Below are positions 4,501 to 55,715 of a DNA stretch of 64,000 nt, one piece after another (the first letter of the stretch is position 1; each line of letters begins with the position of its first letter). The notes beneath the pieces were generated by a model. That model ran no database searches, was not told the origin of the DNA, and saw nothing but the letters and a program-made list of their open reading frames with translations. Both the position numbers and the translations under genes were made by a program. This stretch comes from Triatoma infestans (Eukaryota; Arthropoda; Insecta; Hemiptera; Reduviidae). The stretch covers positions 124,001 through 188,000 of the forward strand of contig JAAEAF010000196.1 of NCBI GenBank assembly GCA_011037195.1. The letters are read 5' to 3'.

Positions 4501-7500
4501 GTGTTTTATGGCCCAAGGCTGAATGTAAATAAAATCTTTTAGAAATAACCTTACTAATAATCTGTGCTTATCACTGCTGTCTACGAAAGTGAAAATAAAA
4601 TATGCCCCTCCCTTTGGTAATGTTGCAGTAGTACTAAGCCTGACGATAGAAGTTGGAGCTTCTGGTGTGATCTCTCAGTTAAAGCTATCAGATTTTAAGA
4701 AAAAATATAAGAATCTAAGCGTACTGGACTCCCCCCACGCGGAGGGCCCGGGATCGAGTCCAGCTATGCTACCCTTAGATTTTTTCTTCCTAGGAGCCTC
4801 TACAGTTCACTGTACGATGATGGACAGTGTTGTCTGTAACGAAAGAACACTGTCCGGAGGGCGGCCACTGAGAAGGTTCCGGGCGCCAATGATCATAGAT
4901 TCTGACGCGCCTTAAAAAAAAAAAATGGAACCGCTCGTCGGGAAGTGTTCATCGATAGGATGTACGCTGCGTCAGGAACTAAGCTGACAATACGGCACTC
5001 TTCTTCCTTTGGTATTTAGGGGTACTGCACTTCTATGAAAACATCTACTGTGCCTTTCGGAGCATTGTCAGTGCACAATATACTCCGCGCAGCATACTTT
5101 CGCTACAGTACCGGGTGAGTAGTGAGCTGTAGAGGCTCCTAAGAAGAGAAAAATGTAATTGCTGATGGGCTCGAAGCCGGGATCCCCGCAAGAGAATCCA
5201 GCGCGGTACCATTGAGCTAAAACTTCCCCTTGATACGGTACTCACAATACATGTTTTTTCCAGAAGTATCCGAGGAAAAAAATTTTAGTAATCTAATTTA
5301 ATTTAACTGATCCAAAATTCTATTGATTCGGTAATTCGTTTATTTCTCCATAGGGAGAGAATTGGAATAGATATTCCTTCCGGGATTTTGGCGTCCCTAT
5401 CAATATCTCAGACTAGTAACACGAAACAACACTTACACTGATACCCCTGATATTCATACAATCAAAAAAAAGTCAGTAAAGATGGCTGTATTGTATGTAA
5501 GTATTTGTGTTTAGCGAACCCACAGGCACTGATTCACACTTTGCCGAGAAAAAACTCTCTACATATAAACACCTGACACAAAAGGGAATCAAAATGGATC
5601 TTTTTTATGTTGTAATGGATTTGGCTTGTTAGCATTCTTTACTTATCTAACATCTAAATCCGTACCATGTTTGCATAATATAATATTTCAGGTGCAATTT
5701 TATCGCATAAAAACAAAAAATTGTACTGTCGCACGATGCTCCATTTTTATGAAACATGAACATAAGGATATGAAACATAACATAAGAAGGTGTGATAAAT
5801 TTGACAAATCGAGAAGAGAAAGATAGTTCCGTGGGTCGGCATGGAAGAAGTCCATTTCCTTCAGTTACTTCCTTTTCTACAGTTACTCACAAAAAAAAAC
5901 TGGTCCAACTCCAAAAAATGCACTCTGCCATTGAGAGAGTACATCTTTCATGTAATTCGTGGTTTATTCAGAATTATGGAATTAATTTTAACTTTCTCTA
6001 GGCATTATTGAAACTATTTCTTTATATATGCTTCATTGCCGAACCAAAAGCAATATTTATAATAGTAAATCCAATTATAGTTTGAAACTAAATGTGAATT
6101 GAAAAAGATTATTTGAATGAAAATATGTCATGCTTGTTGAATATATGGAATTTAAAATTAAGTGAGTAGAAGTAGAACTTGAAAGATCTAAATTTGTTCT
6201 TTACAAAGAACAAGGAAAATTTACTGTCAGCAACTCCAACATTTATATTAGTTTATCCTATATAAGTGATATTGTTGATCTGATCTAGTTGGGCCAAATT
6301 AATAAGTCCCTTTTTTTTCTGCTGACATCACAAAACAAACAGAAGATAACTGTACATTAGCGTATTTAAAAAAAAAAAAAATATCAACCACTATAGCCTC
6401 ATTATGTTGTTTTGATCAATTCAGTAGTCATAAAAAGAATAATTCTACAATTACTTATTTATGTACAAGTTTTCGTAAAGAGAATGTATTTTCTAAAGTA
6501 AAATATACACAAATAAGCTTGTGGTAGCATAATCGCTATAAATTTGGACTCAAAAACAAACAAAAAAATATTAAATTTACTACTTCTACGACATTAAAGG
6601 CTGAACAATCTAGAGACTAAGAAAAAAACAATATTCAACCTTTAATGTTTTACAATAATCTAATGATGAAAACAAAAGGATGCTATTTGTGCAAATGACC
6701 CAAAAAGAAATTATTGAAAGAACGGAATGGGAAATTCCTAGATATATAAACACTCACCTTGGATACAGCCTGCAAAAATGCAGCTTTCCCTACTTTTTGT
6801 CGTTGCCTATTCAACTGGGCTTCCATTCTTCGCTTTTCACTTTCGATCCGTCTTCTTTTTTCTTCTAATTTCATTCGTATGTTCATCAACTGAGATCCCA
6901 TGATGCCGTTGTCAACTACATCGTTTACAGCTGTTAACAATTTTAAGAAATCTGGTATGAAACAGTAGCACTTTCTTTCTGCCAATCTCACAATCTGATT
7001 TTATACAAATTTTTGAAACTGGGAAACAGGGTATTGCTGTTTACAAACCTCCCACAAATGCGCTCACTTTCACTCTCTCAAAAAAAAAGACCAAAAACTA
7101 CAGAAGATTTACCATTATCAATAATCTGTTCACAATTCTGACTCGCTTTCGACTGTTGCTGCCATGTAGTTGTATTGTTGGGTAGGGCGGCAAATGTTGT
7201 CACCTTCTTCTCTTTATCTTGAGTGATTCGAGATTCTAAAAAAATCATATTCCAAAAAAAAGCAAAAATCAGGAATTTTTCAAAAATAATTTTTTTTTTA
7301 ATATATAATTATTTGTTGTGAAAATATTTCAATTTTTTTTTATATCTAAATAGACATGCATAAAATTGAGAAAATACTAGCTACATAACATTCATGCATC
7401 ATCACAATATAAATACAATAACACAATTTGTAACATTACATAAGAGTAAAACTGCTAATGAAACACAGAACCGAAGAATAGAAAATGAATTAACAGAAAA

Positions 7501-10500
7501 ATGTATACAGGTTTATGATCTTATAAAAGAAAGGATTCGTTCAATTTTTTTGTGAATGATACGGTAAGGAAGGGATGTTGTTCAATATTGTTAATATTTA
7601 ACATCAATATCTAATGATCGATGCAGCAATTGCAAATATAAGAACTTTGCTTCTTCTCTTTTTTAACACATTAAATCAGCATTTGTAAAAATCTATAATA
7701 GAAAATAATTAGGAAAATTGTTATTATTTAAATTCAAATGAATGATTAATAATAATAACCATTAAGTATAGGTGTTTGCGGTGGACTTGGATCCAATAGC
7801 ATCTGCTGTATGCCAGCACTACTTCTAGTCTGATCGGCTCTTCTCTGTGATTCGGTGAAACTGTTCGTCCTGGACAATGATACCCTCTGGGTGCCAATTT
7901 CACTAGCTATTTAAGCATATTGCCACAAGTTATATAATGCAATACTAATAAATAACGATGAATGTGATTAGTGGAGATCAATATTATTGTTTGAATAGGG
8001 GAGGGTCTCTTTTAAACAGTTTACATAATAAAATATCCAGCGTGTACTTATGTTCATTAAACAATATGAGCAGAGAATTAGTGGTTAATAATTAATAAAA
8101 TATACTTACCCATATATAAGCCTTGTTTACAATGGTCAGGTTGAAGGAATCAAGAAAAATGGACAAACTTATTCGGCTTTGGTCTAAAGAGATGGAGTCG
8201 GCGACAAAGATGTTATATTTTTGTAAAGAAAGTGGATATAAAGAGCTAGATCTACTGCAAGGTGAAAGATTCTGTTGTGACACCCTTGGTATGACAGTGT
8301 ATGTACATAGAATGTAATCATCTCTACTTGAAGAGTGTACAAGAAATTTTTGCTTTTAACTTCATTTCGAAGAGACATTAATGCCAATTTTATTTAATTT
8401 TTGTTAGCATATCTTGACAATTATATTACTCTCAATTTAAAAAAAAAATTGATAAGAAGTACTTACCACCAATCTCTTACTGAGTTACTAATTTGTCAAA
8501 TATTTATCGAATTTGGAATTTTTTTTTTTTTAATGGATTCTGTTTAGTTTTACAAAGAGCTGATCCGTGAAGTATATTGGAAAATCATTCTAGAGGAACA
8601 TCTGTTTAGCCAGGGCTCCCCCTCTACAACTCCCCTACAATCAATTTTCAAAAACCTATTCCGTAAAATCGCACTTTCGGTTAATTGATTTGTTTCAGAT
8701 TCGGAATTCTATCAATGCTTTTTAATGCGTATTAATATTATGAGATGGTAAAACCATATATTTTAAAGTAAAAAGAAAGTAAAGTCGTAATTCCGGTGAT
8801 GAATTTTGTCCGATATCGTCGGGCCAGATGCGGTCCAACAATTCCAAGTTTAAGCTCCTGCGACTTTTTGTTTTGAGATATTCTGTTAAAACACAGACAT
8901 ACATACATACATATATTCACACACACACACACACACACCTAAAAGCTAAAAACATATTTTTCGTATTCAGGGGCCCTAAACATGTATTCCCGGTTTAAAA
9001 CTCAATTTCGAAAATCTGACACGATCGTAATACTTCCTCTTGCTAGTAATCTTATTAGAGAAAGTAGATAGAAATGAAGATTAGAGGTTTTTCCAGAGTG
9101 GCCAACCTTGGATGGTTGGATTTTGGAAAAAATGTTCATGTCGGATCTTCTGGTGATGTATGACAGAATATCTAGTCTTGAAGTTTCTGTGATATGCAGT
9201 TTTTTAATTTTTTTATATATTCATACAAATATCTACGATTTTCTTTAGAATCGCTTTTTCTTGGACAATATTTGGTGAAAACCCGTAAACGAAAAGTCTG
9301 AAATTAATGGTCTTAACAGCATCAACCACCTAGCAACTCTACCACTGTAAACCAGGCTTAGATGATAATACAATTACACACTCTGGATTAATAAGGAAAA
9401 CAGAATTTTGTTAATTGTAAAAAAAAGAAGGGTATAAAGAAAATTTATTTACATATCCCTATTTTAATTTTAAGGAGGATTTAATTCAGCAGCGGGTACA
9501 TTATTCAGTTAATGTTTCAAATGTGATAAAATCCAAAAGTTTTTCTAAGGGATGTTATCGTAAGAAGCGTTGGAAAAGACGTATCTTTAATTTAATTTGG
9601 AGGTGATGAAACAAATTTGATCTCTGACTACCGTTTTTGAAGGCAGTGTTGTTAACAACATCCGGTTCCAGTAATGTTTCTTGTATTCCTGCACTGCTTC
9701 TAGTTTGATCAGCTCTACGTTGTGATTCAATAAGGCTATTTCTTCTGGACAGGTTTACTATTCTTGGGCTCGAATCAAATCCGCTGACTGTACAATAAAT
9801 ATTCTTGTTTTTTTTTTTGTTTTTTCACCCCAAGTTAACTCACAAGAATTTCTGAAAACTAAAGTAGAGAGTACCATTGTTTTGTATGGTCGGTGATTGT
9901 GGAGGACTTGATTCTTGTAATGTCTCCTGTACGCCGGCACTACTTCTAGTCTGATCGGCTCTTCTCTGCGACTCTGAGAAACTATTGTTCCTTGACACTG
10001 CCCTTTTAGTGTTACGAGTATCAATATCATCTTCGCCAGCTGGTAATTCATTGGCGCATACAAAATAATAGTTAAAGTTCTTAACAATTTATATGCAAAT
10101 CCACTGAGATGTTAGTACTAAAGCTATCTTGAATGAAAGGTGAATTTCTAATTATATGATATTTTCACCTACACCATTTTTTCAAACATATATGAAAGTC
10201 TGTTATATATATCAATGTTAACTTTTATTTAGCAAGATTATTATTCCTACAGAGTAGCAGTCTAAATGTTTGTAATAATATTTAGTAAACTTCATTTAAA
10301 TGAATTTCAATTATCTTATGAATTATAAACATTATCATAACAAGCACATTCTTGAATTTCAAAAGTATTTTTCTTGAATTTTATAAAGAAGAGATCCTTA
10401 TAATAAATTCATTCTACATTGATTAAATGTAAAGAGATTGAAAACGAAGACTAATTAATCATTATAAAAAATCAAACTCTAAAATTCAAAAAATCTTTTG

Positions 10501-13500
10501 AATATCTTAAGATTAATGTTATCATCATAAACTACATGTTAATTTCACCAAATATTAGTACAATAAAAAATTATTTAATAACGAGGAAGTTTAAAACATT
10601 TTAAATTACATTTTAAGTTCACAATAGTACAATTGTTTAACATTAGTTCCTATAATCGCAACGCTTGAGTAAGGCGAGAGATAAAATTGACTGAATCCAG
10701 TTTACGGTTCAGTCCCCGTTCATTCATAAAAAAAAAATCTGGTTTGGAACACTCACAAATTTCTCTTACTCCAGTTCTCAAAATTATAATTGACAAATTG
10801 TGTAGTTTGTGTACCAAATTTAATGAATCTGTCGAAAACTGAAAAAACTGTTCTGTAAAAGCGCAATTCCGGTTTACTAATTTCCTTGAAACTCGGAATT
10901 TTGGCCATCTATTTATTTCTAATTAAGTTTGTTTGGATGATGCAATTGTATAATCAACTATAATAGCACTTTAGGGAAAAACATAACCCCACCCCTCCCC
11001 TAAAAGTGCCCTTAAATGAATTTTCCCAGAGAAATGTTATGAATAAAAGTTGTAGATCTTTGTATGTTTAGTTTATATAAGGAGTTTCAAGAAAATCGTC
11101 GGAGCCATTTTTGAGAAAATTGCGAAAAAGTGAAAAAATCATTTAGTAAAGTAGTAAAGTTAACGCACTTCCGGTTATCCGATTTTTTCAAACTCGGAAT
11201 TTCAACAACATATTCAATTCTAATTAACATTATTTAGATGGCATAATTGTCTAATAAACTGAAAGAGCACTTTAGATGTAAACCTAGCCCCACCCTTCTC
11301 CCAAAAGTGCCCTTAAATGAATTTTCCCAGAGAAATATTTCAAATAAAAGTTGTAGCTCGTTGTATGTATAGTTGATATAATAAGCTTGAAGAAAATCGT
11401 CGGAGCCATTTTTGAGAAAAACGCAAAAAAGTAAAAAAAACTAGTAAAGTGGTACTGCCGGTTGAGGAATTTTGACAGATAACGTACAGTCAGATCCCAT
11501 GGTAATACCTAAACGGAATATCAAGTTTTAACTTTCTGCGGTTTTTCGTTTTTGAGCTGTGCTGTCCACATACTCACAGACCATTTGCTAAAAACCACTT
11601 TTTTGGACTCAGGGACCTCAAAACGGATATTTCCGGTGAAAACTCGATATCGAAAATTTGACACGATTACAATACTCTTCTTACTAAGAGTAAGGAAAGT
11701 AAAAAGTGTAGTTTACATTTGAACATCCTCCTCATCTGATGAAACAAACTTATGTTTTAAATCAAACCCCTTGCCATTAGATTTAGACAGAAGTTATTTT
11801 AACGACTGTTGGGAAGTATGCTATCATATTCTTAACAAAATTATGAAAACTAATCATTTTTTTGCTTAGATACATATAAGCACACATATTTCCACCACTT
11901 TCACGGCTTTACTTGTAGCAATTTCTTATTTTTTTTTTTAATAATGGATTTTAACTCTCACTCAGTGCTATTCAGCAATATCCGATTTTTAGTTGTTAGA
12001 CGTGTAAAGGAAATGGACTTAAAGCTAAAATCCACGTCGATCTAGAAGATACATTGAGTCAGTGTCAGTGTTTGATCATTTTAAGCGAATGTGGGTTTAC
12101 CTTGGGATCGCTAAATCGATAATTGTGTATACCACTAACTATATATTCCTTATGTGTAACGAAAAACACTTGAGTTTCCGGGTTGAGACCGCGTCAATGG
12201 TTTGCTAAAAACCGACGTTTTGCCCATGTTGCAATGAGCCTCTTCAGAGTTGTTACCCCTTGATAGCCAACAAGGCACTGAACCTTAGTAGAGAAGGGGC
12301 GTGGCTCCTTCCTTCGTCATCTTGATTGCCTTCTTCATCGCCATGTTTACTATAGGTGGTGGGCGGGGCTTAATTTTCTCTTCCTTGCGGTGGTGATCAA
12401 GAAGACAGTCAATATGGTGGTCAAGGTGGCGGATGAAGGAGCAGGCCCCTTCTCTACCAAGAGTCAGTGCCTTATTGGCTTTCAAGATGTAACGACCCTG
12501 AAGCGGATCATTGCAACATGGGCGAAACATCGGTTTTTAGCAAACCACTAACGCGGTCTCAACCCGGAAACTCAAATGTTTTTCATGAAAATGGCCGCGG
12601 AAACCTAAAAGATCTTATGTGTAATGCTGAATAATGGAATTATCAATGTAACTGTAACAATTATAGTAAAACAATGACAAAACGCACCGAGAACAATGGT
12701 CTCGCCTATAAATGCGTTCCTGTAAACTAATTGATCATGAAATCGTTAAAAAACGTTAAACTAAAGCGCCCTATTTATTATATTTATATAGATATCTAAA
12801 AATAAATTTTATAACGCAATAACATGAATGAATTATATACAGCGATGTCAATAAATGTCAATTCATAAATAAAGAAATGGAATAATATTAACAGGATTAG
12901 TCTTCTAAGATCTAGGAATAACCTGTTTTGCAAAATATGAAATGTATATTTTCATGCAAAATTGAAATTATAAATATTAGACATGCTCGAATTGTGATTA
13001 AAAACTGTATACAAAGAATTAATCTATACAATAGCAACTAAAACAGAAAACACAAACAATGTTACATATTTCAAATATCACATCTCTTATCAGATACTCA
13101 AAAAATAAAAAAGTAATTATTATAATAGTAATACAGGTTTGATGAAATTAATCCGCCTAGATCGAAAAAAATTAACACCAATAAATGAAAATGTTAAAAG
13201 GCATTCTGTTTACTACAATCTTTAATTAAAAAACTTCCCTCTTTTGGATTTCCATTCATAAAAATGTATAATAAGCTTGCGTTAACTCTATTACACACAA
13301 AATTTGTCCATAGTGAATTAGTTATTTGAATTTTAGTGAACTATTTATAAACAAGTTCATCTTCCTTTCAAAAAATAGAATCAAAGATTGCCTATTTAAA
13401 GAAAAACATTTATGCAGACCTATCTAATAATATGATTGTGAGTAAGCAAATTTTTTAAAAAAAATATCCAACCTCTGAAAATAAAAATCAGTAGACTATA

Positions 13501-16500
13501 TTTTTAAACTTAATAAATGACTGGAGAAATGGAACAACAATTAAATATAATTCCATAACAAACACATACTACTATATATGTGAGTGGACAATTTTACTAC
13601 ATGCGTAAAACATTTACATAAGTATAACAAAAATTTATAAAACATAAGTAAAACAAATACTTTTATAAAACAGCATGCAGTTTACCTTGTTGTTTGGCAT
13701 AAGTTTCCTGTAATGCACTAGTCAGTGCATCACTATTGTTATCAAGTACACTAGATCTAGACACTTGACTATCTCGTCTACCGCTATGCAATACCGCTGG
13801 CTCTTTATCCGGATTTCTTCCTAATAGATGGAGATTTTCTTGGGAACCACCAAAATTCTCTAATGTTAGCTGTATAAACAAAAAAAGTTTTTTTAATTTA
13901 GTTTATCAAATTTTATGCAATATTCATACTAAAAAAGTAGAATATTTGTTTACCTGTGATTCATCAGATAAAGAATTACGTCTTGATCTACGTCCGGCAA
14001 ACGTTTGTTTCCTAGGTTCCCAATTACTAGGTTTACCAGCCACTCTTTCATTTTGTTCCGCTTGCCGATTTCCATCACTTCCACTGCCAGTAACAGAACT
14101 AAGTGTTGGCACTGAACGTCCACGATGAACTACAAATTCATCTTCTTCATTTCTGAATTACAATATTTGAGTTATATTATGTTTGCAGACAAAATGAACA
14201 ATTTTTACATTTCCATATTTTTGTGGAACAACTATTTCAGTTGAACTTTACTTGTGGTCTACCCGAAAAAATAAAAAAGTTATCCACTTTTTTTTTGAGT
14301 TTGGCCGGCTAAAGGGTCTACGGGAGGTACACCCTCCCTCGTAAAAAGACGACTGAAGGTCCGTAAAATATTAAACAAATAGTGGAAGGGATCACTATGA
14401 GTATATTTTGACCACTATTTCAACCGTGCATTAGAAAAAGCAATTACAAGGCTATCTAAAGAACGTGATTTTAGATTTTGAACTGGAGTGTAGCCACTGG
14501 TACTTCAATGGTGCCTGATCCAGCCCAAAGTTAATTTCTATATTTTCATTCATCGTTTGCTTTAAATTCTGAATTTAGTTTGACTGCTCACAGGATTTCT
14601 AAATTATTACATTAAACAAAGTTCAAATATAATCAGAAAGTACAAGGTCATTATTTGAGTCAACAAAAAAATCTTGGAAAATCATCATTGTTACAAGTCT
14701 GTTGAGGCACACTAAACTTCAAATTAAACTATATTTTTCCACATAAGAACTAAGAAAAAAAGTATTTAGATGAAAAGGAATTGATTTGGTTTAAAAATAG
14801 TTACTTTGAACGAAAAAAGTTTTTATTTGATTGAAAATATTTCTAATTTTAATGAAATCGTTTAATTTGGCTGATTAAAAGTTTAATCTGAAAAAAAAAG
14901 GCAAAAATTAGAAGAAAATGCTGATTTTGGTTGATGAAAACGATTCACTGATGCGACGCCACAGCATCACATTGATTTGAAGATCATGCAATTTTCAAAT
15001 TACCTTTCAACACAATTTTCGTTTTGTGAATTAACATAAGATTTCTTCAAATTTCCAGCCGATAAAATTGGAGAACCTATAAAAAAATCAGAGTAATTAC
15101 TAATCAAATTTTATAAATGGATCAAATATGTACTAAAAAATCAAATTTAAAACTAACAGTATAGTATGCACAAGCTTGACATAATCACACAATTTTAAAA
15201 ACATTTATATGGCAAAACAATATAACGAAAAAGCATAAGTATTTAAAAAAATAATTACATACATAGTATCATTAAAATAAATGATATAATTTGTAACTGG
15301 TAATCTATAAAGAAATATTTATTTTATAAAAATTCTTTAAAAAATTAATATACTATATTTTTAATAACTGAATAATAAACAGCATTTAAAATACATAGGT
15401 ATTTGCAGACACAAATCACACAAATGTAAAAAACAAAAAATCCAGGTGATAAATGACAAAACACCTCATGCTGTGCTGTGTACAAACACAAACAAAATAA
15501 TAAAAAAACACGCTTAACCTTAGCCATCTTAATGGAAGAATGGAAATAGCCATGATGAATGTTTGTTTGGTTGTTAAATGCAATTTAATTAATACATTAC
15601 ATTATTAATGAGAACCAAACATTTCAGCGGGTCTGTTACGGCTTTAGTGTGTAACAGATAGTACTTTGTTATTGGAGCTAATTATTGTTATTAAAAAAAT
15701 ACTTTATTCACTTTAAAAATAAATTTTATACATAATATATGCAAAATCTAATGTTCTAATGTGTAGATGGTGAATCTGTTTTTTCAGTTCTAAAGCTATT
15801 TTCTAATTATGACCAAAAACATGCAAAAATAATAGGCTTCATGTGGGCCTCCTTATGAAAGGAAACCTACTTAACAGTTGTATTTAAATGTCGACGTGCC
15901 TTCAAAAATCAAGGGAGCATATATCTCGCTTCAAGGACCTGCTAGCTACCCTACTAACTCTCTACAAGATATTTGTTCACGCAAAGCAGCTTACAGCTGG
16001 CTGAATTTTACAATATCACAACATAAATACGGTTTTCCAGTTATAAAACGCATACACCATTCTTCGCAGAAAAACATTTCCTAGCATTGTAAACCTTCAT
16101 TTTATATAACAGTTTATGAACTGTTCTCACTTTTTACTTTTTCTTACAGCAGAAGAAAAAGATTGTGTGAGAGTTCCGCAATTGAGTTTCATATGATAAA
16201 TATATGTTCACAATTAATGACTCCTAAAAATGAAAAAAAAAATGTGTGCATGTGTCTGTCTAAGCAAAAATTTAAAAAAAAATCTCATGAAGTTCAAACT
16301 TGAAATTCCATTTAGTTCTACTATTGTGTTTTTTTTTTTACGATTTTCTTCAAACCTATACTTTGAAATGTATATTGTCCAGTCATCTTTATCCGAAACC
16401 TTTATTCTGGAAAAATAATTTTTTTTAAAGAGATCTTTGGGAGTCGGTAATCTCAGATTTTTTCGGTAACCTCTTAAGTGCTATTTCAATACACTATACG

Positions 16501-19500: not shown

Positions 19501-22500
19501 GGTCTGCGGTAGGGACCGCTTGTGGGCAACTCCTTGGCTGTTCCTGCCTTCGGCTGCTGACACACACCAGCATGACCAGATAGAATATACCCCATACAAT
19601 ATATTACATACACAGTGATCATCACATATATATATACAATCATTAAATTTGCTAATCTTTTCTTAAATTTATATAAAGGTTGTCAGTTTTGTCTGTGTCC
19701 ATGTATGTATATTGCTGGCATATCTCCCTACAACATCGCTCAAGAGTTATTTTTTTAAATAATTAATTGCACTTATTTATGGATGGCTATATCAATTATT
19801 CCACCAACTTTTTGAGCATTTAAAAAAAAAAGTGGGTCTTTTTCACAGGTATCAATGCTATGTCTTTAGGTGATCCAAGCATTATCTGATTGGGTGACCC
19901 AAAATCTGATTCAGTTTCATGTTTTAAACTTCAATATCAGTTCCAAACGCTGCTTATTATTATTTTTTTTGTTGTAAATTTCTTTCTTTGCGAGAAAATC
20001 ATAGGGAACTCAAAACCGTTCCATCGTAATGCAACTTTACTTTCTGGGAAAATTTACTTTTACGGTTGCTGCTGAGGATTAGTAATTCTAAAATGCTATT
20101 TCATATAATATGCAATTCTATCTCAATAAAATATAAAAAGAATTAAACTTGTACAAAATAAAATATATTTAAAAAACATCGAGTCCAGCTGTGCTACGGT
20201 GATGGGGACGGTGTTGTCTGTAACGAAAGAACACTGTCCGGAGGCCGGCAGTGCACTGATGTTGACGCGCCTTAAATTTAAAAAAAAAAAAATTCGTGCA
20301 ACTTGATAAATTTTTCTTTTCAGTTTGTTATGATTTTTCGAAAAGACTATCAATGATTTCCTGTAAAGTTTGAAATACTAAGGAGGTTCCGTAATCATTT
20401 GTGTTGGAAACATTCTCGGCAGAAAGTTAAATTCAGCGGATTCTGATAGAGTAGCTACTCTTACTTCTTCACTGTATGCGCGGTGATGGCCATGCAAACC
20501 ATTAGAAACCTCGGATTGAGATAGCGTCAGTGATTTCGTGGTAAACCGACCTTTTGTCCCAATTAAAATAGGCTTCTTCAGGAAGTTCTTGCTTTGCAGA
20601 CCAAAAACTTTGTTCGTGTCACTTTAAAATTAGTAAACTTAACAGAAGTCTCGCTTTCTGAACACCCTACTAAAACACTTTTCCGCCATATTTCTTCCCA
20701 CTGCTGTACAGTTCGGTGTGAGACTTGACTTCCCTCACAACTGCCTTCAATATCTCAAAAATCCGGCCCTTGCTCTTACAATTAGAACCCACGGCATTCT
20801 CATCGAACTATAGCCCTATCTTTTTTTTCTTCTTGTACCAATAAACGGAGCAGTGCGTCAGATGTTCGATGCGCTCTTATAATTTTGATATTTTATTCTT
20901 TGCACTAGTGATCAATGAAACATATTAGTTCTTCGTCCATATTTTTCAATGCTTAGTAAAATGTATCAGCTCCATAATAATTACTGTACAAGTGTTTTAT
21001 AATGCCATATTATTTCTCATCGGTGTTTGCCCTCGAATATGTTTAATAAATAAAAAAAGTTTTATATTTTTTAACAGATGGGCGGAATTGCCTTTTCTTT
21101 TCAAATATTTAATGCTATAAATCTACTCGCCTTAGGCTTTCCCTTCTATCTCATCCAATTAAAATTCATGTATGGCATGAGTATGGCTATTGGAAATCTG
21201 AGCTTTCCCGAAAATCAGCTGATTTAAAACTGTCTAACAAAACTATGGAGATCACTGTGTAAGATGGATAGCACTGACAAGGTGCTGATATTGAATTAAT
21301 ATGTATTATTATTTTTTTTTTTCTAAATAATTTGGGGGACAATAATACTGACGGAAGTTGTTTTGTGTGATCGTTTTTCTGATTAGGATCTCTTATTACG
21401 ACAACTTCACCTTAAAAGAATATTGAAGAATACGCTAATAATTTGCAATTTTTGCTCAATGGACATGAATCCCTTAAAGACAAACCAAATTCAAAATAAA
21501 GCACCTAATTTTTAATATCTGCAAATATTTATAAAACCAAATTATTATAATATAATAATTAAAATTTCTAATATTATTGAAAATTAAAAAATAGTGAATA
21601 AGTAGTAGTTATAAAACTGATGTAATATATAATGATGTCTCATATGTAACACGTTCATTGAGTTAGTTCCTACATATGTCCCCTTTCCGGGGAAGTACTA
21701 GATTGCGTGCATGGTATTTGAGAAAGGATCTAGTTATCTGTAATTAATTGTTAACCAATTGTTTTAATCAACTACTATTACTAAGATATTATTAATGCTT
21801 ATTATCAATCACTGATAAGATGATAAAAACACATATACAAAATTATGTGCGAAACCCGAATTTTTCAAATTGTATTGATCAAAAACTAATAAAAAATAAT
21901 AACTTTAGGTCTTATTGCGAAGAATTGCCATCTTATCTAATTTTCTAATTAGAATAATCACCGAAAATATCTGTTTCTAGCGAGTAATGATCTAATATGT
22001 GGCATCTCTGAGAGAACAAAATATTTCATAAATGAAAATTCGCAAAAACACAAACTTGATATTCCAATCCAGACTCCATCGTTACGTTACAACCGACACA
22101 AAGGTTTCGGTCAAAATCCATCAACAAACCGGAAGTGCGATTTTACTGACTCATTTTTTACAATTTTCTGGAAAATGACGCCAACGATTTTCTTTAAACT
22201 AAGACAAAAACATGGGAGGCCTATCAACTTTTCTTTGAAACATTTTTCCAAGAAAATTGATTTTTTGGAGGTGTAGCGTGATGTTATCAGTAATTTCCTC
22301 TAGAGATTAAAATTGCGCTTACAAAAGAGAAGAATTATTTTTTAAAAAGGGGCTGCACTTTTCCCGTTCGGCTGACGCATCTTTAAAAAAAATGTCATTC
22401 GCATACAGTTTTACTAGTTTTAACGAGAAGTTGTATGTATGTCGGTGTATCTGGAGTGAATATTGGACCTCTCTGTCGCAGATGCAACAGAGACCGAAAC

Positions 22501-25151
22501 ACCAGCACATGTGCTGGGAAGCAATCCGCAAAATATGCTCCTCATTACGCGCCGTCACCACAGGGTAAAACACCTAATCATGGACCTTCTCATAGAAAAG
22601 GGATATGAATGCATGGAGGACCAGGTATGCTGACATTTGCATTCAAGGACAACTGTAAAATATCGTGGATCATAGACCCTACGGTGCGCCTTGTGCAACG
22701 ACCTAAAGCATGCCACAAAGGTTCACGAGGAGAGGAAGGCCATATACGATAGGTACATGCCTTTCTACAAGGAAAAGTTTAGAGCGCGGCTCGGGGAAAG
22801 GAAATATGTGGTCTGCGGACTGTGGTTCCTGAGGGTATGAGCATTCAACGGAGACAATTGACTTTCCTAGTAGAATCAATCATAATCGATTCTCCACATA
22901 TACGGTCCAATCACCGCATATATGGCTGACCTCTTAAGGGAGAGTTAAACAGAGTAATGTCGTTAATTAAATCTAATTACCAAATTGACTACGCCTTATC
23001 CATAGGTTGCGTGTTTGCTGACGATTTTATATGGACTTTGCTCTGCCATTTTTATCTATTCTACACAGGTTGGCTAGTAATTATCAATAAATTTTCTATC
23101 TCTTTCAGGAATGTCGTCAAGATTGTTATCAAGCTGTGTGCTTAGCAACTCAACATAGTTGAGCAGCCCCACTATATGTTTTTATAAAGTGCATTCTTCT
23201 TCTACCAAGGTCCCCTTAAAAAACGTTACCAACGCCATGCTTTTAATTCCTTTATAGATATCGCAGTGTGGAATACTTTTTCTTTCGGAGATTGTCCACC
23301 TAATTTCTAAAACTATTCCTGCTTTTTTTTATGGAGCACACAAAACAAGAGACTATAGGACCTTACGTCACGTAAAAACCGTTAAAAATAACTAAATTTT
23401 AGGCAATGAACGTGTTAAATAATATACATTCATTTTTAAAAATCTGATATACAATATAAAAGAGCTTTTTCCTAGAATTTGGTTGCTGTGAAATTCTATC
23501 GATATTATTCCAAAAATCACACATTTAGGAATCGAGTTGAATAAGTTTTATCCAGATTTAATTAATTTTTCTGATGATTAACGACTGAAACAATATAATA
23601 TAAACAAATTTTGCCTTGAAGTTTTTCCAGTAAAGAAAAATTTGTAACGCTGAAGGAATTTTTGTTTTATATTTGCAGAAGTATATTTATATAGTAACTA
23701 GAAGTAGTAATTATAGTATATTATAGTAAAATAGTAATTAAAAAAATAAATTTGAAGACTAAACTAAAAACGAAGTAAATAATGTGGGAAAGCCAATACG
23801 AAGCAAAAATGGTGCACAAAGTTGTTATTTAATTGAAAATAAAAAAGAAGAAAAGACGACAATAAAGCAAGCTGGCACATACATACCGTTTCGCGGCATT
23901 TAATGTCAGGAAAAGGGAGAATTAAAGAAAATTAAAATAATAATAAAAAAAATATAAGAAAGTGTTCTAAAACTAAATTTTTATGTGTTCGCTAAAAGTT
24001 GTATGTCTATTACTATAATTATCAAACTTGTATGTAATATTTTTTACCAGATCGTGTGACGTCTACTGTCATATTTGGAAAAGTGTATTAACCTAATTTT
24101 AAAAAATAAAAATATCTATTTTGGATTTTTTTGGGTGGAGGGGAGGCACATAATGCCAAGAACTATTTAAAAAAAATTCTATGAAAAAATTGAATTCTTA
24201 CTTCTTTTTTAATACGTGAAATTTGTGAATATTAGTTTTTTAAAAAATATAACTTCTAAAAGTTAAAATCGTTAAATAAATCAAATGATAAATTAACACC
24301 AACTACACACTGACCATTAGTCGTGGCCTTAGTCGGGCAACTGTTCAACGTGACGCATGGTGCTGGATGAATTTCTAACATGTTGAAGAGATCAGCTAAA
24401 AATACTACTAAGTTATGTTTCATCGACCTTAACAGAAAAAATAAATAAATATTATTATCACAAATAATAATATTGTTTTTATAAATTATGGGATTTTTTT
24501 TGGGGGGGGATAAATTATTACCTGGACAACTTTGTAAATATATCTCAAGAGTGAGCTTTCCGTTTACATTATAAAAGTGTTACTGGTAAAGAAAACAGCT
24601 GGCAATGTGTGAAGTCATTTAACTGCGTCCTAAATTTACTTTTTCTAAAGTTCTTTGAAATAAAAATACTTTTAAAATGCAAACGATGTGATGTAATGTT
24701 TAAACAAAAACGGAAAAAAGAAGAAGAAGCAATGGCTGTAAAACTGCGACTGCCAGCATTCATGTGGTATGAGTCGACCACGTACTGAACGAGTCTGAAA
24801 TATAAAAAGCGCACTCCCAAGCAGCTGGACAGATCGCTAGCTTTACCATAGACAGGCACTGGCTCAATTTCAAGGTATTGCGGTTTAAAGTATCTTCTTT
24901 AAGTAATGTGAGGCTACTGTCGGATCCCATTGGTAGAGTCTGCGAAGGCAAAGGCGAAAGACCCATTTATTCTTATAAAAACTGATTGGTTTATGAAGAA
25001 TCGGGTTGAAGACTTTTGCCTGGCAATATGACCTCTCTGGAAAAACTTAGACTTCCCTCTTAAGATTTCTATCCACTTTGGTAAGCTATTTGTGACTTTT
25101 AAATGGTACTTGGGATTAAATTTCTGATCTAGTCCCATTATTATTATTATA

Positions 25152-25196
<45 letters not shown>

Positions 25197-28100
25197 TGTC
25201 TGTGGGGAGGGACCAAATCCTATGCTATCCAAAGCCTCATTGGGCCCTTGCAGCTACCCCAAGAAAAACAACAACAAACAGGGTCTAGAACAAATATCCA
25301 GGATCTGGGTTCAACCCATCTAAAATTCACCGCAGTCTGAACAAACCGGACAATAATATTAAAAGGAAAAAGCCAAAGCTCTTCCATAGACATCTCGTTC
25401 CGACCAAAGGCCCTGAACCTAATTTTCTTACAACCCAAGCAATCTGTCATAAGATAGATGGGTGTTTCCTCCTCTGTCTCAAAGACTGATCTAGTCCTAA
25501 CTTGGGCCTATGCCTAGCGCAGTACTCTAATGTATGGAGCGTTATATCGGCTATTTCCAAATTTGACGCATTTCTGGTGCCGAATTTGAAATTGAATGAC
25601 TATTAATGTGATATAAAGAGGCTGTTGTGAGACGGATGGCCAATGTACAGTTTACTTCTATTGGAAGGACCTATGTTACATAACATAACCCGCATTATTG
25701 TTCTTTGTGGTAGCAACATGGCACCAAAATAGCGGGGCAATTTGAGCCACTCCCACAAGATAATAATTTATTTTTTTTTAATTTAAGGCGCGTCATGTGT
25801 GGTCATTGGCGCCTACTCAGTGCATTGCCGGCCTCCGGGCAGTGTTCTCTCGTTATAGACAACACTGTCCATCACCGGACAGCAAGCTGTAAAAGCTCCT
25901 AGGAAGAGAAAATCTAAGGGCAATACACCTGGACTCGAATCCGAGACCTCCGCTAACCACTGAACTAGTCCCTTCCCTACTCAAGATAATAATAACAATA
26001 ACAATAATAGATCCCTAGTTGGTTGCCCCGGTACTTGTAAATCTATTTTCAAATGAGTTTTAATTTTGTTTCTAGTGGTATTTTTCTTTCGGGACCAAAT
26101 AGCTAAAACACTCTCGCCTTATATGAAAGCGTCCGGGTTCGATTGCCAGTAGAATATGAAACGGTTAACTAAGCATCGTTTAGCTAGTAGTAGCAGAAGC
26201 TTATTCCACATGTCACAAACTCGCCATAGGAATTACGAATGACTACAACTCCCCATAATGAAAAAAATCGTCTGGAGAGTTAAGCCCCTAGAGAATATTG
26301 CGCCAAGGAGTGGGGTTCATTTTTTAAAAATTAAGACTATTAATGGAAAATGAAAATTAGACAACACCCGTTCAGTGGCTTTATTTAAGATATCAGTTGT
26401 TTTAATTGCAACTACGGCAAAAGTAGCTGAATCGCTATAAAAATAAAATGTCGCATATTATCTTTCTAAGTTGTTATAACCAAAACATAAATAAAGGGGC
26501 GCTGACAGCCCTGAGATATAAAAAATTTGGCATTTCAAACACATAGATTGACGGCCGCCTAACAAATATATAGTATGTGAAACTGATAGCTTGTCAAGTG
26601 AACTGTAAAAATAATGTTTATTCTAAACTCTTGAAATAAGTAAAAGGTCCTTTTTATGATGGAAAAGAATAGATTCGGAGATATCTTGTTTTATATACAA
26701 CATGGGAATTTATTCTTTGTAAACATGTCGTGAAAATTTTATATGTAGAATATTGTTTCGGGGGGGGGGTCGATCTGACATATACGTGTGTGCTAAGAAA
26801 AGGATATGATAAAGTTATATAATCTTTCAGGCTTCCACGGCCATTGTCATGTAAAACACTTAGGTTTTTGGGTTGAGACGGAGTCAGTGTTTGGTTGGCG
26901 ACATTATCCTGAAGAAGACTATTGTAATATGGGCGAACCATTGACTTGTAATAACCAACCACTGAGGCGGTTTCAACCCGAAGACCTAAGTGTTTTATAT
27001 GTTAAGGTTTCTTTTCTTTAAATAAAAATATTAATCAATTTAATATCTATTTTTTGTACTAACCCTCTCATATAATAAACATCCTCAGGTGACATATGGA
27101 AGATACAAGCTGGTAATGACCTGGCACAAAAATCATGGACTAGAGTTAAGTTGCGCACACAATCGGACACTGTAGGCACCTGTGATACTGATATACTGGG
27201 CCAAGGCAGTTCTTCTGGACAATAAAACGATACTAATCCGCATAATGAGACTCCGTCGCATAGATCTTGCAGTGAGCCCACTTTTGGAAACTCCGGACAC
27301 TTGACATTCGACTAGAGAAAAAAAATTAAGCAAAGTTAATTAAAATGTAAAACATCTTTTTATTTCTTTTTTAAGAAAATTTATAAAAAGAAAAAAGGAA
27401 TCCAAGTGGATAGTATTAAGACTGAAGAATCTGCGGAGCCAGTGGCGGCGGAATTTGAAAGAAAAGCCTTCTGCAAAGAATGGGTTAATTGAGATAGCCG
27501 AACAATCTTTTTCGGGGAGGGCTCTAAGAAGGACGGCAAAGATTGTCCCAATCATGAAGGATCGAGACGTTGAGAAGCTGGATTGGGAGCAGGATGTGGA
27601 ATGAGATTGACAACTGGAAATAAATCTTTGGATTTCTTGGTATTATTTTAATGGAAAACTTATTATATTCTTTTAAGTTACAATTTGAGAAGGTTCTGCA
27701 GGGAATTTTCCGCTGTTAGCCAGTGAAGCTTGCTACATGTCCGTTGGTAAACAAGCACAACTGTAACTATCTACATTTAGGTTTTCTAAATAGACTACTT
27801 TAAGCAGATTAATTGCTGTACAGTTCTAGTATAGTGTTACTGCCTAGCTCAGCAATCCCCACCATTGTGCTCAATACTGGCACTTTAATATTCTTTAAAA
27901 TGATTATATACATATATTGGTGAACTTTCAAATTTTTATTTGCAATAACATTTTCTTTTTAATTATTTGTATATAATGTACTAATAACTCTATACGAACA
28001 AAGTAAACCAGAAATAATTAAAATGATGAAAGCTTGAAGTTCTTTTTTCAATTTTTTTTAATAAAACTGAGTTATCAGGTTTTGTAGAATGAAAATTCTT

Positions 28101-31100
28101 CTTTAAAGGAAATGATCTTCAAAGAATTTATATATAGATAAATACATACAATATGCATCATAAACAACTAATTCACTTTTACACATTCGAGCGTTGGGTA
28201 CTAAGACGAAAAGCTATAAGCACAAATATGTGCTGATCGGGAGAAAGGCAGTCTTATAAAACATGTATAAGTGCTTTAGCAAAAAGAGGAAGGGGGCTGC
28301 AAGCATCTTCAGCAATACAAAATTATTAAAAAAACTAATTCCCCTAAAAAAAATTCCTCTCACCGTCCGTTCTTCCTGTTCTATCCTTAACCGGAGGGCG
28401 GAGGTGGCATGGTTGATCCAGAACAGTAGTGCGTGCTCATAATCCGGCGGTGGTTCTTCATCAACAGTACCGCTTGGCATAAACCTTTTCACAGCCGCAT
28501 AAACGAATTCCGGTGTGGCAACTTCCTTGGCGTACAAGGTCATTACTGCTTGCATCACCGTCTGATGCGCGCTCTGAAATGCAATAATGTTTTATATATA
28601 TAATGTTGTAATCTCTCTCCCTCTCTCTCTCTCTCCTATCTCTCTCTCTATATATATATATATATTATATATATATATATATCGATTTGAATATCTAAAC
28701 CAATGAACTGATATGTGAAATGCAATATTATATTGCACTTTCAGGTCCACTTTTTTGCTGCAGGCTGTCTCTTTCAAGATCGTTAGTATCCCTTAAACTC
28801 GTCTGAAATTTGCTAGGAAGCTTGTCTCTGCAAATTCTTCTGCTTTGTTTCTTCTAACCATAAACATGTGTTAAAGGATGTGTTGTAGACTATTCTAGAA
28901 GAAGAAGGAACTCTCTTTCTTGATACTGTTCTACACTGAGCACTAGATCATATGAGTATCTCGGGAAATAAAGAGAGTGGCCAAATTAAGCTCCTCTCTA
29001 TCTGTTGAGGTATCGGGCCTGCTGTGGACGAGCAGCTCATTGGGTTATCGCAGTCTAGGATGCTCCAATGGAGCTTTGGATAGCGTAGGGTTGATACCTC
29101 CCCACATCGAATAATATTAATAATAACAAGAGCTAATGACCATCGTAGTCGATGCGCTATTTAAAAAAAAAAAAAAAAAACAAACAAAAAAAAACATGAG
29201 CAAAATGATGGATGATTTTCTCGCAGTGTTGAATTAAATTTGATCTCAGTTAAAAGAGAAAAAAAACACGAAAGCCATCTATTAAATTTTATATAAATAT
29301 TTTGAGAGTAATCGAACGACATCATTCAATGCTTTTTGTGACTAAGGTATAAACTTAATAAAATACTTACTAATTTAATTGGTGTTGTCTGTATGAGTAC
29401 AGTTTCAGTGATATGTGGGTCTGAAATGTAGACCCCCTTTCTGGAGAGAGCCTGCAGTACCCCACAATGATTTAGATTATGGTAGTTTGGATCGGAGTAA
29501 ATATTTGACAAAGCCATGCAGTATAGTTCTGCGTTTGCCAACCAATGTACTAATTGAGGTTTTAAATGTTCTTGGTCCTGTAAAACATAAATACAAATTC
29601 AATGTGCGTATAATAACTAAATAATCTGGTGTGAAACACTTAGTGCCCACAACTTTCTCTTATTCCAGTTCTCAAACTTATAATTGACAAATTTTATAGT
29701 TAGTGCACTAAATTTTAAAAAAATAACTGTTCGGTAAAAGCGCACTTCCGGTTTACTAATTTTCTTAGAACTCGGGATTTTGGCCATCTATTTATTTTTA
29801 ATTAATTTTGTTTGGAAGATAGAATTGTATAATCAACTATGTTAGCACTTTAGAGAAAACATAACCCCACCCCTCCCCTAAAAGTGCTCTTAAATGAATT
29901 TTCCCAGAGAAATGTTTTCAACAAAAGTTGTAGATCTTTGTATGTGTAGTTTATGTACAAAGTTTCAAGAAAATCGTCGGAGCCATTTTTGAGAAAATCG
30001 GGAAAAAGTGAAAAAAAAATCATTTAGTAAAGAAAGTGCCGGTCGTCGGTCATCCGATTTTTTCCAAACTCGGAATTTCAACAACATATTTAATTCTAAT
30101 TAACATTATTTAGATGACAGAATTGCCTAATAAACTGAAATAGCACTTTAGAAGAAGCCGTAACCCCCATCGCTCCATCAGAAGTACCCTTAAAAGAATT
30201 TTTCCGGAGACATGTTTCAAATAAAAGTTGTAGTGCTTTGAGAAAATCACAAAAAAGTAAAAAAAAAACAACTTGTAAAGTGGTACTTCCGGTTGAGGAA
30301 TTATGACAGAAAACGTACTGTCAGATCCCATGGTGATGCCTAAACGGAATATCAAGTTTCAACTTTCTAGAGTGATGGTTTTTCGCTTTTGAGCTATGCT
30401 GTTCTCATACATACACACAGATATACCATTTTCTAAAAGTCACTTTTTTGGATTCAGGGGACGTCAAAACGGATATTTCCGGTGAAAACTCGATGTCGAA
30501 AATTTGACACGATTACAATACTTGCTCTAACTAGGAGTAAGAGAAAGTAAAAATTATCAGGATTATGTATTATGTTCTCCAGGGTAAAAATATTTAGTTC
30601 TCCGGTTGTATTGAGCTTTCAGTTCATTTCTTCTAACTCGCCGATTCATGAAACGACAAGACTATTTCATTAGGAGACATTTCCAAACGTCCCCAGTGAC
30701 AAGTTGAAGTAAAGGAGCTGACGTTTATCCAAGAGAATATCAGATTTCCTACCCGAATTAACGAATAACTTCGATGTAGGAGTCAGAGCCATCCTCACTG
30801 CCCTTGAGACTCCAAAGCAAGAACTGTGTTGATCCGTGCATGTGACCAGCGACGGAGGCTGAAATATGCTGAAATGTTAATCTTACTTACGTTAGTAATC
30901 TTAAAAAAAAGTGTCACCTAAATTATTGTTCAGTAAATTCCACAAAATCAGAGTATTGGGAAATGTTGGCGGAATGGGGAGTGAATGTTCCCGTTGGAAC
31001 ACATGCAACATTCATGAAATTTTGAAGTTAAAAGAATAATAAAAAGAGAGGGAGTGAACTTCATGCTGACTTGGGGAACATTATACGGCAAGAAAAAATT

Positions 31101-53478: not shown

Positions 53479-55715
53479 TCATATTAAGTTGAATACATTT
53501 ATATTTTTTAGAAACTGGAATGTTCTTCCTACACTTTCTTCGTTATCCTCCAGTATTTCTTTCATAGTATTGCTAATATTCAACCTATCTTTAGTGGATG
53601 CATTCGAACATTCCATGAAAATGTGTTGGACTGTTAATTGCACACCGCAAGTCTCACAGTTAGGAGGTCGTTCCCCTCTAAAAATATAACCGTGAGTTAG
53701 CATTGTGTGGCCAATTCTCAGTCTTGCCAATACGACTTCTTCGCGGCGGGAGTCTCTGCACGAAGTTATCCATTTCACTGGTATTGCCTTAACAGTTCTT
53801 AATTTATTTGTTAATGGGAGTGCTTCCCAGACCTGCTTCCACTGTGATAACACCTTATTACGCAACGCATTCTTCCAATCGTCCGGCAATACATATTCAT
53901 ATTGGGTGTCTATTAATGCTGCTTTTTTAGCGGCCTTGTCTGCTGCTTCATTGTATTTGATCCCAGTATGTCCGGGAGTCCAGAGAAAGGTAACTCTTTT
54001 ATAATTTTGTGCACAAAGATGCAGATAGTTATGTATTGCCTTGATCAATATATTATCATTATCTAACTTACATATCGCATCTAAGGCACTTTTGGAGTTT
54101 GTACAGATTATGAAGCTTCTCCCGATGTAATTCACTACATGTTCAAGAGCTTTGCAAATTGCGAATAATTCCGCCGCGAAGATACTGGAAATATTATTCA
54201 ATGAACAGCTATAAACTCTTCCATCTATCACCCAAGCACATCCCACACTAGATATTGTTTTAGATCCATCAGTGAAAATTTGTTTGTAATTTCTATAATT
54301 AGTGTCTAACCTTTCCAGAAACTTATTTCTATACACATAATCAGGCGTATTTCATTTTATATATTTACTGAGGGTAAAATCTACTGTAGGCTTGTTAAGT
54401 ATCCAAGGTTCTACCTTCTGGGTTTCGGTGCTATCTGCAGAAGGCATGACAATATTGTTTTGGATACAAAGGTTAGCAAAACGTATACCTAACGGCTTGC
54501 TGTTAGCACAGGTACTGTACGAATCCGCGAACTCGGGTGAATAGACATTTTCATAAATCATATGATTTTTGAATGGTAGCAACTTTGCCGCATAATTACA
54601 AATTAAAACATTTCTTCTAGTTTGTAACGGGTGTTCCCCCTTTCCGCATACAGACTTTCTACTGGGCTTGTTCTCAACGCTCCAAGAGCTACGCGGATTC
54701 CTTCATTATGTACTGGGTTTAAAATCTTCAGTACAGAATCTCTGGCCGAACCATAAATTATACTGCCATAATCGATTTTTGATCGGACATAAGCTTTATA
54801 AAAGTTCAATAGACTATGTCGGTCCGCTCCCCATGTAGTCCCTTTTACAAATTTAAGCGCATTCAGTTTCCTAATGCATCTTTGCTTTAAATCCTCTAGA
54901 TGAGGACGCCAACTTAATTTTGAGTCTAGAATTACTCCTAAGTATCTGACTTTATTTACGCAAGGTATGGTGGTACCTTCCAATCTTAGATCGCCAGTTG
55001 GTTGTACCCGAAATCGATGAAAATGCACGCAATTACTTTTTGTTGAAGAGAAACGGAGACCATTTTTATTCGACCATTCTTCGAGATTTTGGATGACGAG
55101 CTGCAAACTTTCTTCTACTACATTGAAACTGAGAGAACTGCTAAATATCACCAGCATATTTAGCATATTACTCCTAATATCATCTGCATAGAGCATTCCC
55201 TCTACAGAGGACTCCAATGACTCAAGTACACTGTTAATAGCAATAAGAAATAGAATCGGGCTGAGAATACTTCCTTGAGGGACTCCATTTTCTTGGATGA
55301 AAGAAGAAGAAAGGGCTCCTCTTAGTCGCACTTTAAACAATCGCAATTTTAAAAAGTTTTGGATAAAAATTGGAAGGTTTCCTCTTATGTTCCATTGATG
55401 AGCTGTTTAAGAATGCTATACCTCCACACCATATCGAATGCTTTTTCGATATCAAAGAAAACTGCTATAAGGTGTTGCTTTTTTAAGAAAGCGTTTTGGA
55501 TGGCACTTTCAAGTTTTACAAGAGGATCCAGTATACTGTGATTACTCCTGAATCCTGCTTGATATTTACTCAAAAGGTGGCGCGACTCTAAATACCATGT
55601 TAATCTTTTGCAGACCATTCTCTCAAGAGTCTTGCATAGGCAACTTGTCAGACTAATTGGACGATACGATTCCGGGTTTCCCGGATTTTGGAATAGGGAA
55701 AGATATTATGCATAT
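53479..55715 (-). pseudogene. Non-LTR retrotransposon ORF2 fragment: reverse transcriptase, linker, RNase H; dead copy
   Basis: Read from 55715 downward. RT starts with FPIPKSGK, a frameshift, then SYRPISLTSC, FDIEKAFDMVW, another frameshift, NGVPQGSILSPILFLIAINS, MLYADD, and YLGVILDSKLSWRPHL. After a frameshift near 54600 and one in-frame stop near 54350 comes RNase H (FTDGSK, AELFAICKALE, TNSKSAL, WTPGHTGI, ADKAAK) and a terminal CETCGV...QHIFMEC zinc-like motif. YADD is followed by an unusual eight-residue insertion before LVIFSSS, and the third RNase H acidic position reads Asn. RT plus RNase H fits the I/LOA/R1 branches of LINEs. It is 5'-truncated. Confidence 0.92.

Follow-up and report, generated by a model that had tools for sequence, protein, structure and literature searches.

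Among the described systems that bear on the locus reported here, the arrays formed by exons 4, 6, 9, and 17 of Dscam consist of tandem homologous exons of equal phase that are used in a mutually exclusive manner (PMC1397879). In mouse CAMSAP3, also called marshalin, splicing alters a region lying between or close to the CH and coiled-coil parts of the protein, and the long and short splice forms make different microtubule bundles (PMC3828766). These forms arise through an alternative 3′ splice site located in exon 13 and through exons 5 and 6 of the CH region, rather than from tandem copies of a linker exon (PMC3828766). Alternative splicing in a variable linker likewise gives rise to the isoforms of CaMKII (PMC5882894). 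The locus considered here is a block of three homologous exons, A, B, and C, in the gene of Triatoma infestans (Hemiptera; Reduviidae) for Patronin, a capping protein of microtubule ends, located in the linker between the CH domains and the coiled coil. The variable linker of CaMKII, by comparison, is not known to be composed of tandem copies of one exon. Unlike the Dscam arrays (PMC1397879), the Patronin block exhibits modeled joint inclusion and skipping, with no docking/selector pairing detected in its flanking introns.

The closest counterparts are Patronin isoforms of Rhodnius prolixus and Rhynocoris fuscipes, in which the same gene carries three modules in the same order and with the same joins to their neighbors. 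The database entries for both species are protein models, which come without gene structure or any account of a triplication. A preliminary description of the locus knew of no earlier one. This holds for papers, as we found no published account of a Patronin/CAMSAP exon triplication in the open-licence literature (a description elsewhere is possible), but not for public protein databases, where the Rhodnius and Rhynocoris isoform entries already contain these exons.

The analyzed stretch of 64,000 nucleotides, hereafter the window, carries the following parts of the gene:

24315-31521, minus strand: N1-N5, five exons with the CAMSAP CH domains, from domain matches and tblastn with Rhodnius Patronin

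13954-14152, minus strand: E4, linker exon upstream of the block, from tblastn and the 16-exon model

13686-13869, minus strand: E5, upstream linker exon and donor exon for the block, from tblastn and the 16-exon model

10039-9875, minus strand: exon A, 165 nt, phase 1-1, module copy 1

9788-9874, minus strand: A-B intron, 87 nt, from the exon coordinates

9787-9632, minus strand: exon B, 156 nt, phase 1-1, module copy 2

7906-7760, minus strand: exon C, 147 nt, phase 1-1, module copy 3, probably the old exon

7113-7235, minus strand: D, downstream exon and acceptor exon for the block, 123 nt, phase 1-1

6758-6930, minus strand: F, coiled-coil exon (CAMSAP_CC1), from a domain match and the 16-exon model

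The identification of the gene as Patronin, and of the block as part of the linker between CH domains and coiled coil, was proposed from the letters of the sequence and is borne out by domain matches and exon-by-exon mapping against Rhodnius. In the protein spliced from the window under a 13-exon model, PF25532 and PF11971 (CAMSAP CH domains) precede A-B-C and PF17095 (CAMSAP_CC1) follows; tblastn places Rhodnius Patronin exons across the window; and the CH domains, CC1, and C-terminal CKK that mark members of the Patronin/CAMSAP family occur in that order. Correction of one donor and addition of three exons yielded a 16-exon model of 805 residues without a stop. When the whole assembly (941 Mb in 13,959 contigs) was searched with Rhodnius Patronin, 27 of the 28 matches fell on the window's own contig (C189, 95991-155524, minus strand), extending through residue 1759 and including the end part that carries the CKK (PF08683 is listed for P0053, the Rhodnius X5 isoform). 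The remaining match, covering residues 1-48, lies on contig C1856 at 19601-19744. Patronin looks to be single-copy in this assembly, with its first coding exon on another contig, in a search that scored the best candidates only and that a weak extra copy could escape. Two more Patronin exons, at window 19553-19446 and 3353-3252, look optional, and the peptides of both are missing from the Rhodnius X20 model (P0055). Minus-strand open frames at window 53482-54351 and 54606-55406, which encode RNase H and reverse transcriptase domains, belong to a retrotransposon lying upstream of the Patronin exons located here. Within the E5-A intron lies an inverted repeat (window 12161-12303 and 12442-12584) whose 143-nt arms are 88% complementary and 138 nt apart, and which looks like a small transposable element. 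ARAGORN finds no tRNA genes in the window.

Read and translated on its strand, each of the three exons is preceded by AG and followed by GT, opens with two bases finishing a codon, closes with a single G, and is free of stops in the phase 1-1 frame. All three share ESQRRADQTRSSAG, identical in every copy, and over 109 nt the DNA of A and B is 79% and 61% identical to that of C, respectively. The coordinates first given for these exons of 165, 156, and 147 bp proved right to the base, and the shared core, separate AG and GT, two-base start, and lone-G end reported with them were seen in all three. The claim that any combination preserves the Patronin frame also holds: all eight on/off combinations of A, B, and C are open and without a stop in the corrected 16-exon model, as are all 16 combinations of A, B, C, and D in the earlier 13-exon model. 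Adjacent homologous exons with their own splice sites and equal phase are what defines a tandem exon duplication, and A, B, and C show all of these features. Relaxed tblastn reveals no fourth copy of the core in the 64-kb window, the next matches having E values of 1.2 or worse.

The likeness of the copies exceeds chance: over 28 aligned core codons, pN (A-B 0.14, A-C 0.13, B-C 0.11) is far below pS (A-B 0.94, A-C 0.52, B-C 1.03). Synonymous sites near saturation in the A-B and B-C pairs, with the amino acids kept, point to old exons under selection; judged by these codon comparisons, the copies are of old date, and selection on the protein has kept them. A and C, with fewer synonymous differences between them than either has from B, share a 32-nt identical tract within their cores (~9992-9891 and ~7871-7770, read by eye from the codons), which may record a later copying between A and C or gene conversion.

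Three protein searches define the distribution of the module. The first, which returned 52 proteins of 0.55-1.75 times the length of the 709-residue query, held no relative with the full core. The second (10 proteins) recovered Rhodnius prolixus isoform X5, at 84% over 99% of 166 residues, and Rhynocoris fuscipes, at 68% over 92%, followed by weaker matches; the third contributed the best 120 of 677 matches. When the resulting 168 proteins were scanned with a hidden Markov model of ten cores at a cut-off of 20 bits, 11 of them, in a set that includes those best 120 of 677 matches, contained at least one copy at or above the cut-off. Only two of the 168, on the same footing, carry three copies, namely P0053 (Rhodnius) and P0054 (Rhynocoris). 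The other nine carry one: P0055 (Rhodnius X20), P0056 and P0057 (Rhynocoris), P0058 (Lygus), P0059 (Cimex), P0060, P0061 (Halyomorpha), P0062 (Nezara), and P0071 (Clastoptera, a spittlebug). Among matches under 20 bits, segments selected from Bemisia (a whitefly), a leafhopper, and a psyllid score better than 500 of 500 shuffles, and an aphid segment better than 497 of 500. The single copy in representatives of other true bugs is C-like. Such single copies, with weaker ones in whitefly, leafhopper, and psyllid, indicate that the exon is old in Hemiptera. Three copies are seen in reduviids alone among the relatives scanned, which are representatives of 90% clusters, behind which members with other exon combinations may be hidden. 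The C-terminal end of P0054 carries, after its CKK part, a second, diverged CKK-like stretch, which may be a gene-model fusion or a partial duplication.

Rhodnius belongs to the Triatominae and Rhynocoris to the Harpactorinae, both within Reduviidae, and Lygus and Cimex belong to the Cimicoidea. Judged by the protein identities, the window's species most likely stands closer to Rhodnius than to Rhynocoris. By BLAST, the window's A and B best match the first and second modules, respectively, of both P0053 and P0054. C best matches the third module of P0053; in P0054, it scores 67.0 bits against the first module (A) versus 63.5 bits against C. Rhynocoris B and C share RADLTRSS, where the window's copies read RADQTRSS, and this variant may reflect conversion between copies. 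A tree of 13 exon peptides supports the A group at 88/88 and the B group at 98/96, and weakly, at 60/35, the C group, which is placed next to the single copies from other bugs. In their DNA, A and C resemble one another more than they resemble B, a pattern that the protein tree does not have. These relations are consistent with C being the original exon and with a triplication that preceded the split of the Rhodnius and Rhynocoris subfamilies. An optional exon probably existed first, and A and B were added next to it in reduviids.

How the three exons are used can be read from predicted isoforms of the relatives; database models of this kind generally rest at least partly on RNA reads. In Rhodnius, X5 (P0053) is modeled as E5-A-B-C-D, X20 (P0055) as E5-C-D, and X19 (P0064) and X21 (P0063) as E5-D, with all three exons skipped. 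For Rhynocoris fuscipes, P0054 follows the order E5-A-B-C-D, and P0056 and P0057 run E5-C-D. A without B appears in no representative isoform. The Lygus isoforms P0065 and P0066 pass directly from E5 to D, which indicates that the block is optional there too, and the likely older state, on these models, is one optional exon. Inclusion and skipping with the frame kept, the behavior of an optional cassette, is found in the Rhodnius and Rhynocoris database models and in the frame of the window. The preliminary description had left the choice between a mutually exclusive and a combinatorial cassette. The combinatorial half stands, with A-B-C, C alone, and none all modeled, and the mutually exclusive half falls with the joining of A-B-C in P0053 and P0054.

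A cluster in which exactly one of A, B, and C enters each mRNA, enforced by RNA pairing, steric limits, or reading frame, would account for the tandem likeness and equal phase that are the usual marks of such arrays, and is nonetheless very improbable. The models of two reduviid genera include isoforms that join all three members, and the openness of every combination means that the reading frame enforces nothing. The 87-nt A-B intron would be long enough for an insect intron. In a duplex scan of the flanking introns for docking/selector pairing, the energies are slightly better than the null means; however, 1, 1, 1, and 2 of 12 Markov nulls are as good in the four scans, and the signal is neither clear nor significant. 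The splice sites themselves fit optional use: by an approximate donor-matrix score, the donors of A (−1.5), B (−1.1), and C (−1.1) are the lowest three of 16, the others ranging from 1.9 to 7.9, a placement expected once in 560 by random rank. The 16 nt before the AG contain 7, 8, and 7 pyrimidines in A, B, and C, respectively, which is few, but a count of 8 recurs in three of the other exons, and a further one has 6.

These weak donors also tell against nearly constant inclusion, by which the module would be a tandem protein repeat built through exon duplication, as do the C-only and none models of Rhodnius and the C-only models of Rhynocoris. The Rhodnius A-B-C cluster does hold 18 member sequences versus 2, 1, and 1 for the other three, numbers that reflect annotation, not expression, and we regard constant inclusion as unlikely. 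The fragmented assembly, with the first coding exon on another contig, raises the thought of an assembly artefact or a recent segmental copy. This is excluded in effect by copies that differ at about half to all synonymous sites, by flanks of A, B, and C that show no homology beyond shuffles over 80 nt on each side, and by the same A-B-C order in Rhodnius and Rhynocoris. What the comparison confirms, at the level of sequence and of the relatives' gene models, is that the tandem triplication of this exon is real, conserved, and specific to the lineage, its copies being used both optionally and jointly in those models.

We consider it quite probable that an older optional Patronin linker exon, now C, was duplicated twice in the line toward assassin bugs to give A and B upstream of C, and that all three act as ordinary phase 1-1 cassettes with weak splice sites. 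The spliceosome could then include all three, only C, or none of them without ever breaking the frame, and every exon included would add one disordered-linker module to the stretch that separates the CH domains from the coiled coil. The duplication order and a regulated choice in Triatoma infestans itself are what we infer, the evidence on exon use coming from database models of relatives.

The module has the consensus SRxNS[FL]xESQRRADQTRSSAGxQxxL, one copy per included exon. The charge-hydropathy index lies slightly on the unfolded side for the linker (−0.084) and for A+B+C (−0.079), and no solved structure matches at an E value of 0.01. AlphaFold2, given exon C with A and B as the alignment, returns one helix at residues 10-29 with a mean pLDDT of 62.9 and a pTM of 0.27, values too weak to lean on. 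As to the origin of the core, common descent with the E5 tail (219 of 500 shuffles as good) or with a termite linker (110 of 500) is not supported; against the E4/E5 junction, SRRNSLSDESQ, the core scores 7.6 bits with 1 of 500 shuffles as good, a hint only, as this was one of ten segments tried. In Rhodnius each copy carries a serine of LxRxxS type (motifs at 539, 592, and 642), with further pattern matches at 406 and 535. Sites of this type would suit basophilic kinases. In human CAMSAP2, serine-835 is phosphorylated by MARK2, which changes a partner (PMC12058119). The function of the triplication may be to supply more copies of a possibly phosphorylated linker module, the number of which may tune a phosphorylation- or partner-dependent property of Patronin.

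A different duplication is present in another true bug. At residues ~457-570 of P0058, from the mirid Lygus hesperus, between E5 and the single core, lies a second copy of parts of E4 (47% over 75 residues, E 4.8e-15) and E5 (70% over 40 residues, E 6.4e-14). This duplication sits at the same join as reduviid A and B, and P0065 and P0066 skip the whole block. The true-bug Patronin linker might then be a recurrent site of exon gain, through tripling in reduviids and E4-E5 duplication in Lygus, both adding serines after arginine, with splicing setting the number of phosphorylatable modules and so tuning non-centrosomal microtubule anchoring by tissue. We hold this broader proposal to be possible, if rather doubtful.

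The triplication is an exon duplication of a familiar kind, not an either-or switch, and may amount to a tidy but ordinary lineage-specific case unless one of two prospects is realized. With the parallel gain in Lygus, the linker would exemplify exon gain recurring at a single join. To our knowledge, the role of Patronin's disordered linker between the CH domains and the coiled coil is poorly defined, and if splicing sets zero, one, or three modules, the reduviids would offer a natural dose series for that role.
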